Source: Alphaproteobacteria bacterium
Lineage (GTDB): Bacteria > Pseudomonadota > Alphaproteobacteria > Rhodobacterales > Rhodobacteraceae
NCBI GenBank assembly: GCA_030426685.1
Contig: JAUHYC010000006.1
Span: 1 to 64,000 of the forward strand
Length of the DNA stretch: 64,000 nt
Reading direction: 5' to 3'
The position numbers and the translations under genes were made by a program. The notes beneath the pieces were generated by a model. That model was not told the origin of the DNA. It saw only the letters and a program-made list of their open reading frames with translations, and did no database searches. Positions 11,731 to 60,995 of this stretch are shown in pieces. How positions within the stretch are numbered: the stretch's first letter is position 1; the number at the start of each line of letters is the position of its first letter.

Positions 11731-13275
11731 ATGAACGAACAAACCCGTACCTCCTCCCGCAGCGGTGGACGCGCCGCGCGTCGTGCCGCACGTGCTTCGG
11801 CCCTGCCAGACCACCTGCGCCCCGTCCGCCCCGGAATGGAAGGCGGCACCTACAAACCGCTGAGTGCCGCAGACGTCGAAAAAATCCATCGTGCCGCCTT
11901 GCAAGCACTTGAAACCATTGGTCTTGCCGACGCACCACAAAGCGGGGTCGACTATTTGGTTCAGGCTGGCTGCGAGTTGGGTAATGACGGGCGCATTCGC
12001 TTTCCCAGCGCTCTGGTCGAAGATACTCTGGCCAAGGCTAACAGATCGGTCACTCTCTACAGCCGCGATGGAGAAACCGACCTGACGCTTTCGGGCAACC
12101 GCGTCCACTATGGCACTGCGGGCGCGGCGGTCCATATGGTTGACGTGACAGGGCGCGAGTACCGCGATTCGACGGTTCAGGACCTGCACGACGCCGCGCG
12201 GATCTGCGATCAACTGGATAACATCCACTTCGTCCAGCGCCCGATGGTTTGCCGCGATATCACCGACAATCTCGAGATGGATCTGAATACCATCTACGCG
12301 TGTTGCTCAGGGACGTTCAAACATATCGGAACCTCCTTCACAGACCCTACATATGTCGCTCAAGCTGTTGAAATGCTTCATATGATTGCGGGCGGTGAAG
12401 ATGCATGGCGCACCAGACCATTTGTTTCGAATTCGAACTGTTTCGTCGTTCCGCCCATGAAATTCGCCACTGAAAGCTGTCAGGTGATGGAGGAATGCAT
12501 CAAGGCTGGCATGCCGGTGTTGCTGCTGTCGGCCGGCATGGCAGGTGCAACTGCGCCGTCCACGATTGCAGGTGCAATCACACAAGCAACTGCTGAATGT
12601 CTGGCTGGATTGGTTTATGTAAATGCCGTAAGTCCCGGTGCTCCTGCAATTTTTGGCACTTGGCCATTTGGCCTCGACCTGCGAACTGGTGCAATGTCAG
12701 TGGGTTCGGGTGAACAGGCATTGCTGAGCGCGGGCTGCGCACAGATGCATAAGTTCTACGACCTCCCGGGAGGAGCGGCCGCAGGGGCCTCGGACTCAAA
12801 AATGCCCGATATGCAGGCCGGGTGGGAACAGATGTGCTCGAACGTGATGGCAGGGCTTTCGGGCGCAAATATGGTCTATGAAGCCGCGGGCATGCACTCT
12901 TCCCTACTTGGATTTTGCCATGAATCCTTGATCTTAGGCGATGATCTTATCGGGCAAGCGCAACGTTGTGTGCGCGGAATCGAAGTGACTGACGAAACGC
13001 TGGCGCTGGATCAGATGGCTGAGGTTTGCCTGGGCGGACCGGGGCATTATCTTGGCACCGACGCGACACTCAGCCGAATGCAGGCGGACTATGTCTATCC
13101 AACGCTTGGGGACCGCACCTCACCCAAGGAATGGGCGGAATTAGGCAAACCGGACTTGATCGAAAAGGCTATCGCGCGAAAAGAGGAAATCCTGGCGACC
13201 CCGTCAAACGCGCGGTTTGAACCTGCATTGGATGCTGAACTGCGCAGCAAGTTCAACATTCACTTGCCTGCATAA
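11731..13275 (+). CDS. MttB-family corrinoid methyltransferase (non-pyrrolysine type)
   Basis: A 514-residue member of the trimethylamine methyltransferase (MttB) superfamily. It has the family segments HYGTAGAAVHMVD, FVQRPMVCRDI, SAGMAGATAPSTIAGA and a C-terminal GGPGHYLGTDATL. Archaeal MttB has an in-frame amber codon for pyrrolysine. Here the frame is open with sense codons only, so this is the non-Pyl (MtgB-like) type, whose known members demethylate quaternary amines such as glycine betaine or carnitine onto a corrinoid protein. The substrate cannot be read from sequence. The basic N-terminus (SRSGGRAARRAARAS) is common in roseobacter homologues. No corrinoid protein is adjacent; the only one seen is at 41132-41830. 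Confidence 0.85.
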   Translation: MNEQTRTSSRSGGRAARRAARASALPDHLRPVRPGMEGGTYKPLSAADVEKIHRAALQALETIGLADAPQSGVDYLVQAGCELGNDGRIRFPSALVEDTLAKANRSVTLYSRDGETDLTLSGNRVHYGTAGAAVHMVDVTGREYRDSTVQDLHDAARICDQLDNIHFVQRPMVCRDITDNLEMDLNTIYACCSGTFKHIGTSFTDPTYVAQAVEMLHMIAGGEDAWRTRPFVSNSNCFVVPPMKFATESCQVMEECIKAGMPVLLLSAGMAGATAPSTIAGAITQATAECLAGLVYVNAVSPGAPAIFGTWPFGLDLRTGAMSVGSGEQALLSAGCAQMHKFYDLPGGAAAGASDSKMPDMQAGWEQMCSNVMAGLSGANMVYEAAGMHSSLLGFCHESLILGDDLIGQAQRCVRGIEVTDETLALDQMAEVCLGGPGHYLGTDATLSRMQADYVYPTLGDRTSPKEWAELGKPDLIEKAIARKEEILATPSNARFEPALDAELRSKFNIHLPA

Positions 13276-14574: not shown

Positions 14575-17500
14575 TTAGCTACACCCGCTTGTCGCGCCGC
14601 AGGTGTTGCACTTCATGCAGGTGCCGTTGCGCACCAGCGTGTAGTTTCCGCATTCGCCGCAGGGGTCGCCCTCGTACCCTTGCATTTTGGCTTTGGTGCG
14701 GGCGTCCATTCCGGTTGCGACCGACGCCTCAGCAGATGCTTCGAATGTGGCTGCGGTTTCGGCCATGCCGGTTACGTCAGCCTGACCACCGTTAAAGACC
14801 ATCAGATCTTGCGGCAGACGCTTACGCAGATAACCTGTCGAACTGATTTGTTTCAGCACTTCCAATGACTTGGTGGCCGCACTGTCACTGATTTCCGAGA
14901 CATTCGACAGTCCGTCCTCTTCCCCCCGGCCCAGATCGTCGAAGGTTGCGCCTTCGGGTTTCACATGCGCCAGATCGGTACGGTCCAGATAAGACACGGC
15001 CAGTTCGCGGAAGATGTAGTCTAGGATCGACGTTGCGTTCTTGATCGAGTCGTTGCCCTGCACCATCCCTGCCGGTTCGAACTTGGTGAAAGTAAAGGCG
15101 TCAACGAACTCTTCCAGCGGCACGCCGTATTGCAGGCCAACCGACACGGCGATGGCGAAATTATTCATCATCGCCCGGAAGCCAGCGCCTTCCTTATGCA
15201 TGTCGATGAAAATCTCGCCCAGCTTGCCGTCTTCGAACTCACCGGTGCGCAGATAGACCTTGTGGCCACCGACGATTGCCTTCTGGGTATAGCCCTTGCG
15301 GCGATGAGGCAGTTTCTCGCGATGGCTGCGGATCATTTCCTTGACCACAACCTTCTCGATCACCTTCTCCGCCAGAACGACGGCTTTTTCTTGCGTCGAA
15401 CCGCTCTCCAGCACTTCCGCGGCCTCGTCATCATCCTCGACCAGCGCCGCGGCCAAAGGCTGCGACAGTTTTGAGCCATCACGATAGAGCGCGTTAGCCT
15501 TCACACCCAGCGACCAGCTGAGTTCATACGCCTTCTGGCAATCCTCGATGGTCGCGTCATTCGGCATGTTGATCGTCTTCGAGATCGCGCCCGAGATGAA
15601 GCTCTGCGCCGCCGCCATCATGGTGATGTGGCTATCAACCCCAAGGAAACGCTTGCCTTTCTTGCCGCACGGGTTGGCGCAGTCGAAGATCGAATAATGC
15701 TCTTCCTTCAGGTGCGGCGCGCCTTCCAGCGTCATCGTCCCGCAGACGTGGTCGTTCGCCGCGTCGATATCTGCCTTGGTAAAGCCCAGATGGCGCAGCA
15801 AGTCGAAGGTCGGGTCATTCAGCTTGGTCGCCGGGATGCCCAGAACGCCGGTGCAGAAATCTTCGCCCAGTGTCCACTGGTTGAAGACAAAGCGAATATC
15901 AAAGGCGCTTTCCAGCGCGGCATCCACCTTGGCCAGTTCGTTCGGGCCAAAGCCGTGACCGGTCAGCGAGGTATGGTTAATCCCCGGCGCGTTGCCGATG
16001 GTGCCGTGGCCAACCGCGTAGCCCACGATCTCTTCGATCTGAGCCGAGGAATAGCCCAGTTTCTCAAGCGCCGACGGCACCGAGCGGTTGATGATCTTGA
16101 AGTAACCGCCACCGGCCAGCTTCTTGAACTTGACCAGCGCAAAGTCAGGCTCGATCCCGGTGGTGTCGCAATCCATCACCAGACCGATGGTGCCGGTGGG
16201 CGCGATCACAGTGGCCTGCGCGTTGCGATAGCCGTTCTGCTCACCCAGGCTCAGCGCTTCATCCCAAGCCGACATGGCCAGATCGACCAGACGCTTGTCC
16301 GGGCAATTGCCGTGGTCGAGAGGCACCGGCTTCACGGCCAGTTTCTCATATCCATTGGTCACGCCCTGCGCCGCCCGGCGGTGGTTGCGGATGACGCGCA
16401 GCATGTGGTCGGCATTGCGCTCATACCCTTTGAACGGGCCAAGCTCGCCTGCAATCTCGGCCGAAGTCGCATAGGCCACGCCGGTCATGATCGCGGTCAG
16501 CGCGCCACAGATCGCCCGGCCCTCATCCGAGTCATAGCTGTAGCCCATATTCATCAGCAGACCGCCGATGTTCGCGTATCCCAGACCCAACGTGCGGAAG
16601 TCATAGGACAGCTGCGCGATTTCCTTCGACGGGAACTGCGCCATGGTCACCGAGATTTCCAGCGTCAGGGTCCACAGGCGCGAGGCGTGCATGTAGTCCG
16701 CCGCCTGGAACTCACCATCCTTAAGGAAGGTCAGCAGGTTCATCGACGCCAGGTTACAAGCCGTATCATCGAGGAACATGTATTCCGAACACGGGTTCGA
16801 TCCGCGAATCTCGCCATCTTCGGGGCATGTGTGCCACTCATTGACGGTGTCGTGGAACTGGATGCCCGGATCGGCGCAGGCCCAAGCGGCGTGGCCGACT
16901 TTCTCCCACAGATCACGCGCCTTGACGGTGCGGGCAACATTTCCATCGGTGCGGTTGATCAGCTCCCAATCCGCATCTTTTTCGACGGCAGTCAGGAATG
17001 CGTTGGTCACACGAATCGAGTTGTTCGAGTTCTGACCCGAAACCGAGCTATAGGCTTCCGAATCCCAATCCGTGTCGTAGGTCGGGAATTCGATGCTGTC
17101 GTGCCCCTGCTTGGCGTAATCCAGTACGCGTTTGATATAAGTCTCAGGGATCGCAACCTTTTTGGCCTCGCGAACCGCCTTTTTCAGGCTGTCATTCTTG
17201 TTGGGGTCATACGCATCGTCTTGAGCGCCGTCCCAGTTACGGATGGCCTCGAAAATGCCGTTCAGCATCTTCTCGTGCATCTTCGATCCGGCTACGATCG
17301 AGGCCACCTTCTGCTCTTCGATCACCTTCCATTCGATGAATTGCTCGATGTCGGGGTGATCTGCATCGACGATTACCATCTTTGCTGCCCGACGGGTTGT
17401 CCCGCCTGATTTGATCGCGCCAGCGGCGCGGTCGCCGATCTTGAGAAAGCCCATGAGGCCCGAGGACTTGCCGCCACCCGACAGCGATTCGCCTTCTGCA

Positions 17501-18192
17501 CGCAGATGGCTGAAGTTGGTCCCTGTACCCGAGCCGTATTTAAACAGGCGCGCCTCGCGCACCCACAGATCCATGATGCCGCCTTCGTTCACCAGATCAT
17601 CATCGACGGACTGGATGAAACACGCGTGCGGCTGCGGATGTTCGTAGGCAGATTTCGATTTGGTCAGCTTGCCGGTTTTGTAATCGACATAGTGGTGCCC
17701 CTGCGCCGGACCGTCGATGCCATAAGCCCAGTGCAGACCGGTGTTGAACCACTGCGGCGAGTTCGGAGCTGCGCGCTGCGTCGCCAACATATAACGCATC
17801 TCGTCGAAATAGGCGCGCGCGTCTTCCTCGGTCGAGAAATATCCGCCTTTCCAGCCCCAATACGCCCACGCACCTGCCAAACGGTCAAACACCTGTTTGG
17901 ATGAGGTTTCCCCGTTGAACTCAGCACCATCCGCAGGAACCGAACGCCACAGGAATTCAGGTACGTCTTTCTCTTTGACCTTCTTCAGCTTGGAAGGAAC
18001 ACCGGCCTTGCGAAAATACTTCTGTGCGATCACATCGCTGGCCACCTGGCTCCACTTTGCGGGCACCTCGATTTCGTCCAGTCGAAAGACGATGGTGCCA
18101 TCCGGGTTGCGGATTTCCGAAGTTGCAGACACGAAATCCAGCTCTGCATATGCATCCTGACCCGGTTTGGTGAATTTTCTTTCAATCTTCAT
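14575..18192 (-). CDS. nrdJ: Adenosylcobalamin-dependent ribonucleotide reductase (class II)
   Basis: A 1205-residue class II RNR, which reduces ribonucleotides with or without oxygen using coenzyme B12. Seen are [20 protein letters not shown], the active-site [23 protein letters not shown] and [19 protein letters not shown]. The C-terminus has a cysteine-rich CGECGNY-(7)-CMKCNTCG segment that serves as zinc site or redox shuttle. The ATG at 18192 ([12 protein letters not shown]) is the usual start; upstream in-frame codons have no ribosome site. No class I nrdAB appears in the window. Confidence 0.95.
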
Positions 18193-18736
18193 GTCCGCTG
18201 CCCCAGCTTCAATCTGTCCAAAATTTTCGTACCCGACACCAAATCTTGTGTTGCGGGGTGCCGCCCGCAATGCCGTAGAATCTCAGGCGCGAAGGACCGG
18301 ACGCTGCCTGTAACAGCGCAGAACCGCGAATACGGTCGCACGTCAAACTGGTTTGCTTTCCGTCCCCTGTCCAAGCCCTTTTCCGGTCATTACCTACCAG
18401 ATTTAGTGGCTCTTCTCCTGGCCCATACAATCTGACGTATATTCCCATAGTTGGTCAACGGCCTTTTTCCCTCATTTTTGAAATCTTTTGGCTTGACCCG
18501 ATTCAGCAAACCGGCTGGAAACCGCCGGTCCGTGATTCCTCCACAGGGGAGTTGTGGACATCAACTGGCCGGAAAGTCTGAGTTCAAGATTGATTTCCCG
18601 TTAGGAACGCCACAGTTACGACCGAAAGATCAGGCGGTTAACTATTAAGGACAATTCCAGAGAATCATCGTCACCATCGCGCATTGCGTGCCATAGTCGG
18701 GAACGAGTGATTTTCAGTTCGAGACAAGTTTCAGCC
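18193..18736. other. Long intergenic region between divergent nrdJ and a lipoprotein gene
   Basis: About 540 bases without a gene. Reading toward nrdJ it has a possible -35 TTGACC near 18452 with no good -10 match, and a 7-bp hairpin TTGCGGG/CCCGCAA at 18251-18270, about 60 bases before the nrdJ start. A separate inverted repeat TCCACA/TGTGGA lies near 18540-18558. I looked for a B12-box and an NrdR box and saw neither, so regulation of nrdJ by these routes is not supported here. Confidence 0.4.
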
Positions 18737-39755: not shown

Positions 39756-40823
39756 TTAAAACAGCGAAAGCTGATCACCCGGTTGCGGAGGCGGTGCGAA
39801 ATGCGCACAGCTGAGAGGTTGCGTCTTGATCGCCAGCCCCAACCGTTTGCAAGCCGCCTTGAAACGCTGCGCAACCATCTGCGCATAGGTCCCCTCGCCC
39901 CGCATACGGTGCCCCCAACGCGGATCGTAATCCCTGCCGCCATGCATTTCCCGCAGTCGCGCCATGACCTTCGCCGCACGGCCCGCTTCATGGTCTTGAA
40001 GCCACTCTTGCCACAAGGCCGACACTTCACGTGGCAGGCGCAGCATGATCCAGCTGGCTGCATCCGCCCCGGCTGTTTGACCCGCCTCCAACAGATGCTC
40101 AAGCTCATGATCCGTCAGACCTGGAATAATGGGTGAAGTCATAACCCGCACTGGCACTCCGGCATCTGTCAGCTTTTGAATCATGCGCAACCGGCGCAGC
40201 GGAGATGGCGCGCGCGGTTCCATCCTGCGTGACATATCAGGGTCCAGCGTGGTTAGGGAAATGCCGACCCGAACCAGATTCTTGCGCGCCATGGGGGCAA
40301 GAATATCCAGATCACGCTCGATCAACGCACCCTTCGTGACGATACCGACCGGGTGTTGGAAATCACTCAGGACCTGAAGACAAGATCTTGTTATTCTGCG
40401 GCTTTTCTCAACCGGCTGATACGGGTCGGTATTGGTTCCCAATGCAAGCGTCGCGACCTTATATGCACGCGCTGACAGCTCGCGCCTGAGAATGTCAGCC
40501 GCATTGGACCGTGCAACCAGGCGCGTTTCGAAATCCAGCCCCGGCGAGAGACCCAGATAGGCATGGGTCGGGCGCGCAAAGCAATAAACACAACCGTGTT
40601 CGCACCCGCGATATGGATTGATGGAACGATCAAATGGCAGGTCCGGTGATTTGTTATAAGTGATCAGCGTTCGCGCAATTTCATCCCTGACTTCGGTCCG
40701 CAATGGCGGCAGATCATCTTCTTGCTCCCAACCGTCGTCCACCGTCTCTGTCGTGAACCGCTCAAACCGGCCGACAGAGTTCGAGGCTGCACCACGCCCT
40801 GGATGTTTCAGAAGATCCTTCAT
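39756..40823 (-). CDS. PA0069-family radical SAM protein (SplB-like)
   Basis: A 355-residue radical SAM protein. The cluster motif is RGCEHGCVYCFARP (about residues 69-82; CxxxCxYC). TLALGTNTDPYQPVE and GIVTKGALIERDLD are family marks shared with spore photoproduct lyase-like proteins, and it ends in GDQLSLF. The substrate is unknown; DNA photoproduct repair is only a guess from distant similarity. It converges on the barrel gene at 38805 with 9 bases between. Confidence 0.85.
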   Translation of the reverse strand: MKDLLKHPGRGAASNSVGRFERFTTETVDDGWEQEDDLPPLRTEVRDEIARTLITYNKSPDLPFDRSINPYRGCEHGCVYCFARPTHAYLGLSPGLDFETRLVARSNAADILRRELSARAYKVATLALGTNTDPYQPVEKSRRITRSCLQVLSDFQHPVGIVTKGALIERDLDILAPMARKNLVRVGISLTTLDPDMSRRMEPRAPSPLRRLRMIQKLTDAGVPVRVMTSPIIPGLTDHELEHLLEAGQTAGADAASWIMLRLPREVSALWQEWLQDHEAGRAAKVMARLREMHGGRDYDPRWGHRMRGEGTYAQMVAQRFKAACKRLGLAIKTQPLSCAHFAPPPQPGDQLSLF

Positions 40824-41131: not shown

Positions 41132-41830
41132 ATGTCTGAAGAAGAAGACATCGTCCTGTCCGAACTCAACGACGACGAACTCGTCGAACAGATGTTCGAT
41201 GACCTTTACGACGGCCTGAAAGAAGAGATCGAAGAAGGTGTTAACATCCTTCTCGAGCGTGGATGGCAGCCGTATGACATCCTGACCAAAGCGCTGGTCG
41301 GCGGCATGACCATCGTTGGCCACGACTTCCGTGACGGCATCCTGTTCGTGCCCGAAGTTCTACTGGCCGCCAACGCCATGAAGGGCGGCATGGCCATTCT
41401 GAAGCCTCTGCTGGCCGAAACCGGTGCGCCACGCGTTGGCAAGATGGTCATCGGTACCGTCAAAGGTGACATCCACGACATCGGCAAGAACCTCGTGGCG
41501 ATGATGATGGAAGGCGCTGGGTTCGAGGTTGTCGATATCGGGATCAACAATCCGGTCGAAAACTACCTGGAAGCGCTGGAAAACGAAAAGCCCGACATTC
41601 TTGGCATGTCTGCCCTGCTGACCACCACCATGCCCTACATGAAAGTCGTAATCGACACGATGGTCGAACAAGGCCTGCGCGATGATTATACTGTGCTGGT
41701 TGGCGGTGCGCCGCTGAACGAAGAGTTCGGCAAGGCGATCGGTGCCGACGGCTACTGCCGCGACGCTGCTGTGGCCGTTGAAATGGCCAAAGATTTCATG
41801 TCGCGTCGACACAACCAACTGGCCGGCTAA
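41132..41830 (+). CDS. Corrinoid (B12-binding) methyl-carrier protein, MtbC/MtgC-like
   Basis: A 232-residue methyl-carrier protein. An N-terminal helical cap domain (about 1-95, with ALVGGMTIVGHDFRDGILFVPEVLLA) precedes a cobalamin-binding Rossmann domain. The lower-ligand histidine motif is GDIHDIGKNLV (DxHxxG, about residue 118), with SALLTTTM and VGGAPLNEEF as the other B12-contact loops. In known systems such proteins accept a methyl group from an MttB-family enzyme and pass it to a second methyltransferase acting on tetrahydrofolate or coenzyme M. Its immediate partner here is a DUF1638 gene; an MttB-family gene is 28 kb away. Confidence 0.92.
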   Translation: MSEEEDIVLSELNDDELVEQMFDDLYDGLKEEIEEGVNILLERGWQPYDILTKALVGGMTIVGHDFRDGILFVPEVLLAANAMKGGMAILKPLLAETGAPRVGKMVIGTVKGDIHDIGKNLVAMMMEGAGFEVVDIGINNPVENYLEALENEKPDILGMSALLTTTMPYMKVVIDTMVEQGLRDDYTVLVGGAPLNEEFGKAIGADGYCRDAAVAVEMAKDFMSRRHNQLAG

Positions 41831-41854
41831 GGCACAGACACAATACTGTGAAGC

Positions 41855-41883
41855 AGGCCGTCCTTTTTTGGGCGGCCTTTTTT
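41855..41883 (+). terminator. Terminator after the corrinoid protein gene
   Basis: The stem AGGCCGTCC pairs with GGGCGGCCT around a T-rich loop and is followed by TTTTTTG. It lies 25 bases after the corrinoid gene and before the DUF1638 gene, so the two may be partly uncoupled in expression. Confidence 0.82.
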
Positions 41884-41936
41884 GTTCAAGCAGTGCGATC
41901 CTATATGAATCACGACAAGCCCGGTGGAGAGATCAG

Positions 41937-42614
41937 ATGACGGATACCCCCCTGCCAGATGATGACAGCCTGACCCGTCAGGGCTATGCCACTCCGCAGG
42001 CGGCTGAATCCATCCTGCTGATCGCCTGCGGCGCACTTGCGCGTGAGATTCTGGACCTGAAAAAACGCAATGGCTGGGATCACATCGCCCTGACCTGCCT
42101 GCCCGCCATTCTGCACGTTTACCCCGAGAAGATTACTCAGGCCGTCGAAGAAGCCGTTGCCAAACACCGAGGCAACTATGATCAGATTTACATCGTCTAC
42201 GCCGATTGCGGCACCGGAGGTTTGTTACAGTCCGCCTGTGAACGGTTGGGTGTGAAGATGATCAAGGGGCCGCACTGCTACTCCTTTTTCGAAGGCAATC
42301 AGGCATTTGCCGCCCATGGCGATGATGAAACGACCGCCTTTTACCTGACCGATTTCCTCGCACGGCAATTCGATGCGTTTGTCTGGAAACCGCTCGGTCT
42401 GGACCGGCACCCCGAACTGCGTGAGATGTATTTCGGGAATTACACCAAACTTGTCTATCAGGCGCAGACCGACAATCCCGAGCTCACGCGCAAGGCTCAG
42501 GAATGTGCTGAGCGAATGGGGCTTGCGTTTGAGCGCCGCCAGACCGGTTATGGCGATCTTGAAACCACGTTGTCAGACTGGGCCGCACGCGGCGGATCGG
42601 ACCAAACCGGCTGA
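41937..42614 (+). CDS. DUF1638 domain protein
   Basis: A 225-residue protein of the DUF1638 family. Visible conserved parts are LLIACGALAREIL, LTCLPAILHVYPEKI, YIVYADCGTGGLLQSACERLG in pieces, and the GPHCYSFFEGNQAF segment. Several cysteines and histidines (CGALA, TCLP, DCGTGG, PHCY) could bind a metal or corrinoid. The function is unknown, but members are recurrently next to corrinoid methyl-carrier proteins, which supports a role in the same methyl-transfer pathway. GGAGAG precedes the ATG at 41937. Confidence 0.82.
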   Translation: MTDTPLPDDDSLTRQGYATPQAAESILLIACGALAREILDLKKRNGWDHIALTCLPAILHVYPEKITQAVEEAVAKHRGNYDQIYIVYADCGTGGLLQSACERLGVKMIKGPHCYSFFEGNQAFAAHGDDETTAFYLTDFLARQFDAFVWKPLGLDRHPELREMYFGNYTKLVYQAQTDNPELTRKAQECAERMGLAFERRQTGYGDLETTLSDWAARGGSDQTG

Positions 42615-42617
42615 GCG

Positions 42618-43028
42618 TCAGGCACTTGCCAGCGCCACCTCGCGGATCCGCTCGATCATCGCCCGCAAACCATTTGACCGCTGTGCCGAGAGATGTTCGT
42701 GCAATCCCAGGCGGGCCAGTTCCCCACCGGCATCCACCTTGGGCACTTCGGACACAGGCAACCCGTTGTAAAGCGTTCGCAAAACAGCGATCAGGCCGCG
42801 TACGATCAGGGCGTCACTGTCGCCGTCAAAACGGAACTTCCCCTCTTCGATCACCGGATGCAGCCAAACCTGACTGGCGCACCCATTCACCTTGGTCGCG
42901 GGAACCTTGAAGACCTCGTCCAGGGGCTCCATTGCTTTGCCCTGCTCGATGACATGGCGATAACGATCTTCCCAGTCCTCCAGGAACTCGAAATCCTCGA
43001 CAATTTCTTCGAAGGCGGGCGTTGCCAT
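42618..43028 (-). CDS. sufE: SufE family sulfur acceptor protein
   Basis: A 136-residue SufE-like protein that takes sulfur from a cysteine desulfurase for Fe-S cluster assembly. The sulfur-accepting cysteine is in KVNGCASQVWL (about residue 51). EDFEFLEDWEDRYRHVIEQG in the N-terminal half and DALIVRGLIAVLRTLYNG are typical. It stands apart from any suf operon in this window and converges on the DUF1638 gene with 3 bases between. Confidence 0.9.
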   Translation of the reverse strand: MATPAFEEIVEDFEFLEDWEDRYRHVIEQGKAMEPLDEVFKVPATKVNGCASQVWLHPVIEEGKFRFDGDSDALIVRGLIAVLRTLYNGLPVSEVPKVDAGGELARLGLHEHLSAQRSNGLRAMIERIREVALASA

Positions 43029-57295: not shown

Positions 57296-60022
<2,727 letters not shown>

Positions 60023-60045
60023 ACCCAAGACGGTTTTGCACATCC

Positions 60046-60074
60046 CCCCCGCAGCATGAATCTGCGGGGGTTTT
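60046..60074 (+). terminator. Rho-independent terminator of gyrA
   Basis: The stem CCCCCGCAG pairs with CTGCGGGGG around a 7-base loop and is followed by TTTTG. It lies 24 bases after the gyrA stop. Confidence 0.9.
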
Positions 60075-60152
60075 GAATCCGCCCAATTCACGCATAATCG
60101 CGCTTCCCGTAAGTCATGCTATCCTTGAGGTATTTCAGATAGGAGTTGAGCG

Positions 60153-60995
60153 ATGCTTGATGGCGCCATGCTGGTCTGGTTCCTGCTCACAGGCGTCAGC
60201 GTTTTGTTCGTTCTATGGGATTCGATCTCCAACGGCGTCACAAGCTGGGTTCAACGCGCTGCGTGGTGTCTTGTCACGCTGTACACAGGCCCCATCGGGT
60301 TGTTCTTTTACCTTCTGGCCTGCCGGCGCCCGTTTCCGGGCGGGCATGATGAGTTCACAAAAGCCACGTGGAAGCAGGGCATTAACAGCGAAATGCACTG
60401 CGTTGCCGGTGATGCAACTGGTATTATCGTGGCCGCCATTCTTCTTTACTTCGTTTCCATCCCAAATGGCTGGGACATTGTTATCGAGTACGGTTTTGGC
60501 TTTATCTCCGGCCTGTTCATCTTTCAGGCCCTGATGATGTTGCCAATGTTCGGAAGCTACGCGCAGGCGGTTCGCAAGACGATCTTTGCCGAGACAGTTT
60601 CGATGAATTTCGTCATGACCGGCATGATCCCCACCATGGTGATCCTCTCGGCCCAATGGCCCGGTTCCGACGATCCTCTGATGCCAGCGTTCTGGTTCAG
60701 GATGAGCCTGGCGACGGTTATCGGCGCGGTCATCGCCTTTCCCATAAACTGGTGGCTGGTTGTGAACCATCTCAAGCACGGCTGTATGACGCTGCCCGGA
60801 GCCGATGGCGCCGCGCCCGCGCTGGGTCATTCCTCACCCGAAGGTGCCGAGCAAGTGAATGATGAGATGCCAGATCACAAAATGGAGATGCAAACACTTA
60901 CGACAACACAGATGTACATCTGGGTCATCGCCACTTACGTAGTGCTGTTTGCATCGCTCTGGTTGACCTCGCGCTATGTGCCGATCACGTTTTGA
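60153..60995 (+). CDS. DUF4396 membrane protein
   Basis: A 280-residue integral membrane protein of the DUF4396 family. Hydrophobic segments are near residues 5-22, 35-57, 88-104, 112-135, 150-168, 180-203 and 255-275. The conserved HCVAGDATGIIVA (about 82-94) and MNFVMTGMIP lie in or near helices and could form a metal or ligand site. A His/Met/Asp-rich loop (EMPDHKMEMQ) precedes the last helix, a feature suggestive of copper binding but unproven. No partner gene is evident. The function of the family is unknown. Confidence 0.78.
   Translation: MLDGAMLVWFLLTGVSVLFVLWDSISNGVTSWVQRAAWCLVTLYTGPIGLFFYLLACRRPFPGGHDEFTKATWKQGINSEMHCVAGDATGIIVAAILLYFVSIPNGWDIVIEYGFGFISGLFIFQALMMLPMFGSYAQAVRKTIFAETVSMNFVMTGMIPTMVILSAQWPGSDDPLMPAFWFRMSLATVIGAVIAFPINWWLVVNHLKHGCMTLPGADGAAPALGHSSPEGAEQVNDEMPDHKMEMQTLTTTQMYIWVIATYVVLFASLWLTSRYVPITF

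Follow-up and report, generated by a model that had tools for sequence, protein, structure and literature searches.

A DUF1638 protein as a candidate reactivation partner of an MtgC-type corrinoid carrier in the Rhodobacteraceae

The 64,000-nucleotide stretch of rhodobacteral DNA analysed here (the window) contains two neighbouring genes, one encoding a corrinoid (B12) methyl carrier and the other a DUF1638 protein, and it is fairly probable that the two are MtgC and its reactivation partner in the split B12-dependent methionine synthase/glycine betaine demethylase of the Rhodobacteraceae. The first-pass annotation of the window singled out this pair as its best candidate for an incompletely described system; that hunch pointed in the right direction, but the locus is an ordinary one that belongs to a known machine, most of which is already in print. 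Whilst the system at this locus was known, the set of candidate ligands in DUF1638 and a branch of the family that is fused to kinases are the new leads.

The carrier and DUF1638 genes

The first gene of the pair (41132..41830, forward strand; ATG at 41132, stop codon at 41828–41830, 232 amino acids) encodes an MtgC-type carrier in which PF02607 and PF02310 are recognised above the Pfam cut-offs (63.5 and 91.7 bits, respectively), and the cobalt-ligand motif D113-x-H115-x-x-G118 can be read from the sequence at 41468–41485. These two domains together with DxHxxG are what is looked for in the Roseobacter MtgC, or split methionine synthase, carrier, and the initial description of a full MtbC/MtgC-type carrier is borne out. 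Judged by score, the protein falls outside the narrower NCBIfam family of glycine betaine-specific corrinoid protein MtgC, reaching 199.6 bits against a cut-off of 370 for NF047996 and 172.9 against 310 for NF047995. Its relatives of solved structure are 1y80 and 7xcn, and it is 90% identical to the carrier of Ruegeria pomeroyi strain SZCCDBG043 (locus L048). Rfam at gathering scores reported just five tRNAs in the whole window, and no riboswitch or other RNA 5′ of the carrier.

The second gene (41937..42614, forward strand, from the ATG to the end of the stop codon) encodes the DUF1638 protein of 225 amino acids, which matches PF07796 with 123.9 bits (cut-off 27) and no other Pfam family. A longer reading frame from a GTG at 41742 would overlap the carrier and is unnecessary. 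The Cys/His motifs earlier reported in this protein are present, with C31, H60, C91 and C114 as candidate metal ligands. Here the two genes are directly adjacent, unlike in R. pomeroyi SZCCDBG043, where an additional open reading frame of about 366 codons lies between them (L048:8812–9909); the same is seen elsewhere among the Ruegeria relatives (L037:8823–9920).

An intrinsic terminator is predicted between the carrier and DUF1638 (41855..41885, forward strand), consisting of a 9-bp stem at 41855–41878 followed by a run of T. By pattern alone it is not above chance, with one element found against 2.7 expected; its fold has a z of −4.2, and none of 200 shuffles was equally good. A pattern count over the 63 relatives in which the carrier gene ends at most 700 bp away gave a terminator-like element between the two genes in 25, whereas 40 shuffled sets averaged 1.0 and never exceeded 3 and the reverse strand gave two, so that the terminator proposed in the first-pass annotation holds up. 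Given its frequency in the relatives, the carrier transcript may mostly end ahead of DUF1638 in part of the family, and such termination would fit a bulk need for the carrier and a small need for DUF1638 as a helper. Against a strict cut of the transcript stand the 38 of 63 relatives with no terminator-like element in the gap, as well as P. inhibens, for which Price et al. describe, in the part of the paper drawn on here, a single operon with DUF1638 as its last gene (PMC5764234).

On the other side of the carrier lies a gene for a PA0069-family radical SAM protein (39756..40823, reverse strand; NF033668, 506.8 bits), and in 59 of 73 relatives a gene of this family likewise lies upstream of the carrier, at a distance of 1.5 kb or less. 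It probably stands outside the machine; a role for it as the reactivator was rejected on the P. inhibens fitness data, as far as these are drawn on here and assuming orthology. Downstream, a SufE-family gene (42618–43028, reverse strand; PF02657) is convergent with DUF1638, an arrangement that recurs in 46 of 76 relatives; as support for an Fe–S cluster in DUF1638 it is too weak to count. The window contains a second B12 user, a vitamin B12-dependent ribonucleotide reductase (14575–18270, reverse strand; NF005736, 2225.5 bits).

The published system and its parts in this genome

In P. inhibens, a carrier, a pterin-binding protein and a homocysteine-binding protein together form a three-part methionine synthase, according to the sections of the study used here (Price et al. 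2018, PMC5764234). The same sections report that the fitness of the DUF4445/RamA-like protein and of the carrier-adjacent DUF1638 correlates with that of the other parts and that methionine rescues the mutants; the DUF1638 gene was needed for methionine synthesis, and a polar effect was considered unlikely (PMC5764234). The view that the role of DUF1638 is undescribed is therefore partly outdated, although Price et al. themselves had ‘no specific proposal’ for the protein in those sections (PMC5764234). In R. pomeroyi, methionine synthesis and glycine betaine demethylation both require MtgC (SPO2160) and MtgD, and levels of DUF1638 (SPO2162) and RamA are higher on N-osmolytes, again as given in part of the source (Mausz et al. 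2025, PMC12478193). A THF-dependent demethylation pathway, as first assigned to the window pair, thus covers glycine betaine demethylation but leaves out methionine synthesis. In the portions consulted of two further papers, S. meliloti SMc04333 is named in a table for DUF1638 and nothing more is said of it (PMC12542648), whilst the homocysteine subunit of the P. inhibens synthase can also function without cobalamin, DUF1638 not being mentioned by name (PMC12366255, FEBS J. 2025).

The genome analysed here holds the same kinds of parts as the MtgBCDE system of R. pomeroyi DSS-3, in which RamA is SPO2041. Matches to MtgD (59783–60553, 68% identity to the query) and RamA (57496–58311) were found on contig C73 and a match to MtgE (49%) on contig C102, all on contigs other than that of the pair, and a profile search of the genome found no PF02965, the MetH activation domain. 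As in P. inhibens (carrier PGA1_c13350, DUF1638 c13340, RamA-like protein c15200), the carrier adjoins DUF1638 and has a radical SAM neighbour, the RamA-like protein is encoded elsewhere in the genome and PF02965 is lacking; unlike in P. inhibens, the match to the homocysteine subunit lies away from the pair. The carrier query matched just the window's own gene in this genome, which leaves no sign of the B12-binding part of a MetH either. By the logic of the published split synthase, the organism should depend on the window pair for methionine, unless MetE or another route is present. The MttB-family gene that had been noted 28 kb away does exist at 27.9 kb from the pair (11731..13275, forward strand; PF06253, 382.9 bits), but it is the weakest of six MTTB matches in the genome, so that the distance means little and no special tie to the pair follows from it.

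Gene neighbourhood and co-occurrence of DUF1638

The claim that DUF1638 genes recur next to corrinoid carriers proved well founded. Amongst 80 close relatives, a carrier lies upstream of DUF1638 on the same strand and within 2.3 kb in 76; the available stretch, long for L099 alone, shows none in the other four (L082, L099, L101 and L106). In 27 alphaproteobacterial genomes, with loci of about 3.4 kb, a carrier is seen in 24; L010 lies near a contig end, and in L014 and L022 the carrier is on another contig. Thirteen of 18 further DUF1638 genes of the phylum were looked at (those in G228, G155, G178, G185 and G189 fall outside this set), and in 12 of the 13 a carrier lies at most about 2.4 kb away, the remaining locus, L119, starting at a contig end. 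Three settings recur: MtgC with MtgD, MTTB and RamA (L123, L126, L127); RamA, carrier, URO-D and DUF1638 in this order (L121, L122, L124 and L125, with L135 and L136 partly seen); and carrier, URO-D and a DUF1638–kinase fusion. At L121 the order continues beyond DUF1638 with a GAF/PAS protein, an NMT1-like binding protein and a hybrid kinase, these three having been identified by scan at L121 only, and the layout of L125 is similar; the two clusters may form a circuit for signalling or uptake built on a corrinoid methyltransferase.

Co-occurrence was followed in two draws of genomes. In the first, 143 Alphaproteobacteria taken mostly as one or two per family, DUF1638 was found in 27 genomes, RamA (PF14574) in 31, MTTB in 28, PF02965 in 85 and an MtgC-type carrier (at a threshold of at least 73% identity) in 27. 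All 27 genomes with DUF1638 also have RamA, 26 have MTTB and 26 have MtgC; the proposed check, by which a distribution independent of carriers would have spoken against a link, has therefore come out in its favour. One genome, G093, has DUF1638 one gene away from a carrier of another type (44%), with URO-D genes. In the second draw, made from the phylum as a whole (100 genomes), the 18 genomes with stand-alone DUF1638 are also the 18 with RamA, without exception on either side, and in the union of both draws, which have four DUF1638 genomes in common, every one of the 41 genomes that hold stand-alone DUF1638 has RamA as well; the Fisher values for co-occurrence, 3e-20 and below, ignore relatedness. 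RamA, like the other PF14574 activators RACo and AE, is nevertheless a protein separate from DUF1638. A tie to the MetH activation domain was rejected, PF02965 being present in 14 of 27 DUF1638 genomes and 71 of 116 others (p 0.39), where PF02965 is a proxy for MetH that misses any MetH without that domain.

Four genomes count against the reading of DUF1638 as a reactivation partner. G081 has MtgC, MtgD, an MTHFR-like protein, RamA and MTTB and no DUF1638; in G059 and G139, RamA stands beside carriers of 43–47% identity, again with no DUF1638; and in G055, which likewise lacks DUF1638, RamA is a fragment and MTTB is present in broken pieces. That DUF1638 is a universal partner of RamA was rejected on account of G059, G139 and G081. 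The MtgC cluster of G081 (L129:5955–11082) comprises MtgD, the MTHFR-like protein and RamA, and a small putative relative of the PF13769 neighbour of L126 adjoins its carrier.

A proposed role in carrier reactivation

Since stand-alone DUF1638 was not seen without RamA in the genomes covered here, and its loss alone leads to a need for methionine in P. inhibens, an activation step on the carrier side is the likeliest role. In the published model, the parts of which were matched here, the corrinoid of the carrier alternates between methyl-Co(III) and Co(I), receiving a methyl group from methyl-THF through MtgD or from an MTTB protein, and this group passes to MtgE, where homocysteine is the acceptor, or back to MtgD. 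Co(I) is readily oxidised to inactive Co(II), and DUF1638 together with an ATP-driven activator of the RamA/RACo type may then restore the carrier. We envisage that the candidate metal site of DUF1638 docks at the carrier, where it could relay an electron or keep the corrinoid reducible. Of the three tasks originally suggested for DUF1638, namely corrinoid loading, reactivation and methyl hand-off, an accessory role as such is supported and reactivation fits it best, with the other two rated lower.

Two published systems bear on this proposal, each taken from part of its source. The activator of A. dehalogenans uses ATP to raise the potential of the Co(II)/Co(I) couple in its carrier, to which it donates an electron from a cluster that the activator itself carries (PMC6739815). 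In vitro, activator and ATP alone shift the potential, and no DUF1638 protein is mentioned in the part used here (PMC6739815), which counts against a need for DUF1638 as partner. MecGH of the dichloromethane mec cassette is described as likely to act in reactivation of the corrinoid cofactor, with Price 2018 among the sources cited, and is likened to DUF1638 by this described role alone (PMC9768040).

A candidate metal site

C31, H60, D90, C91, H113 and C114 are invariant in alphaproteobacterial DUF1638 (27 of 27 sequences, and 77 of 77 among close relatives), whilst the distant stand-alone forms L121, L124 and L125 have lost D90 and H113 and retain the other four. C31, H60, C91 and C114 are kept in 108 of 108 distinct stand-alone rows (27/27, 77/77 and 10/10 in the separate alignments), most of which are close relatives with 64–80% identity and more than 50 invariant positions in the close-relative alignment, so that invariance alone says little. 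That alignment comprises 76 of the 80 relatives, L039, L041, L042 and L044 being outside it. The kinase-fused forms have exactly four columns that are Cys in all nine sequences; three match C31, C91 and C114, and the fourth stands in a C-x-x-P in 9/9, comparable to H60, which stands as H-x-x-P before P63. The automatic alignment puts this fourth Cys one column off, at residue L59; in our reading it would occupy the position of H60. An exchange of His and Cys at one site is expected of a metal ligand, and, taken with the conservation of the ligands, this swap suggests a metal site in DUF1638, either Fe–S or Zn, between which sequence cannot tell. D90, C54 and H113 were dropped as ligands because they are lost in the kinase-fused and distant forms.

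In the predicted structure of DUF1638 (pLDDT 90.6, pTM 0.86), C31 ends strand 26–31, H60 follows strand 50–55, C91 follows strand 83–87 and C114 follows a short strand at 107–108. Each of the four candidate ligands is thus modelled where one of the strands b1–b4 finishes on its C-terminal side, or shortly after, which would put the site along the C-terminal edge of a Rossmann-like sheet. Sequence search gave no solved relative of DUF1638 (best E 0.45), and fold searches gave no clear match in the PDB, the best in Foldseek having an E of 8.4e-4 with a TM of 0.25 and the best in VIA a diffuse Z of 8.4. Glutamate racemases, periplasmic binding proteins and other α/β proteins all score alike, and hence no function was drawn from these scores. 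AlphaFold modelling of a single chain from L114, in which carrier, read-through and DUF1638 are joined, gave good parts and no confident relative placement; the run used close relatives in mostly unpaired rows, and its pTM of 0.50 neither supports nor refutes a contact between carrier and DUF1638.

The same residues could be read in two other ways. DUF1638 might load corrinoid into the apo-carrier, with a Cys thiolate holding the cobalt in transit, for which the thiolate-held cobalt of the human CblC/CblD pair during corrinoid loading offers an analogy. The conserved Cys and the regular pairing with carriers would suit such a loader, but it leaves the link to RamA unexplained, and four conserved Cys/His resemble a closed metal site more; Price et al. 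also argued, in the part of the paper available here, that DUF1638 takes no part in making B12, which is a step related to loading though not the same, and loading is rated unlikely. It is very unlikely that DUF1638 is instead a methyl-transfer subunit that passes the methyl group on at a Zn-thiolate site: the Cys/His site and the position in the gene cluster are compatible with this, but MtgD, MtgE, MTTB and URO-D already match the donor and acceptor subunits in the genome or the clusters examined, and the fold searches, which cannot exclude a methyltransferase fold, matched none.

Kinase-fused forms of DUF1638

In four PF07796 matches that lie in long reading frames, Pfam places HATPase_c (4/4) and HisKA (3/4) after DUF1638. 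A profile built from the fused domains found nine DUF1638–kinase proteins in 249 genomes of the phylum (L117–L120 and L156–L160), with DUF1638 N-terminal in each, HATPase_c in all nine and HisKA in seven; PF07796 itself reports six of the nine, L120 and L157 scoring just below its cut-off (26.1 against 27). A B12 carrier and a URO-D gene lie directly upstream in six of the nine; the locus of L119 starts at the end of its contig. For L158 and L159 the available stretch shows no carrier and no URO-D, and these two of nine count against the reading preferred here. RamA is absent from the five genomes covered that have the kinase form only (G153, G166, G172, G175 and G205; G233 is outside this set) and present in G149, G178 and G179, which have the kinase form as well as stand-alone DUF1638. 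With kinase-only genomes lacking RamA and the fusions standing mostly behind carriers, the most constant partner across both forms of DUF1638 is the carrier, not RamA.

The kinase-fused form is a possible sensor of carrier state, and its DUF1638 domain probably uses the same docking to the carrier to read that state. No published account of DUF1638–kinase fusions was found in a literature search; the nearest case, from the part of the source used, is MecA, the PocR-type kinase of the mec cassette (PMC9768040). The fusions invite the thought that DUF1638 is in general a sensor or gate that distinguishes a methylated from an inactive carrier and controls flux or, in the fused form, a kinase, with no part in reduction. 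Six of nine fusions behind carrier and URO-D, and five kinase-only genomes without RamA, are in keeping with this; the occurrence of RamA in all 41 genomes with the stand-alone form is not, and a pure sensor need not cause the methionine-dependent growth that follows loss of DUF1638 alone, as reported in the sections of Price 2018 cited above. A sensing role with no part in reduction is accordingly rated unlikely. The reactivation reading can be widened, tentatively, to take in both forms: DUF1638 may be a carrier-docking Fe–S module that repairs carriers together with the RamA ATPase and, when fused to a kinase and with its His ligand changed to Cys, reports the state of a dedicated pair of carrier and URO-D. 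If this is true, bacteria would have a sensor based on methyl-corrinoid, of which the literature search found no example.

Significance

The candidate site of four residues, the list of partners (RamA and MtgC) and the kinase-fused form make the role of DUF1638 directly testable. The machine to which the pair is assigned serves both the synthesis of methionine and the breakdown of glycine betaine, and DUF1638 is needed for methionine in a marine model bacterium.
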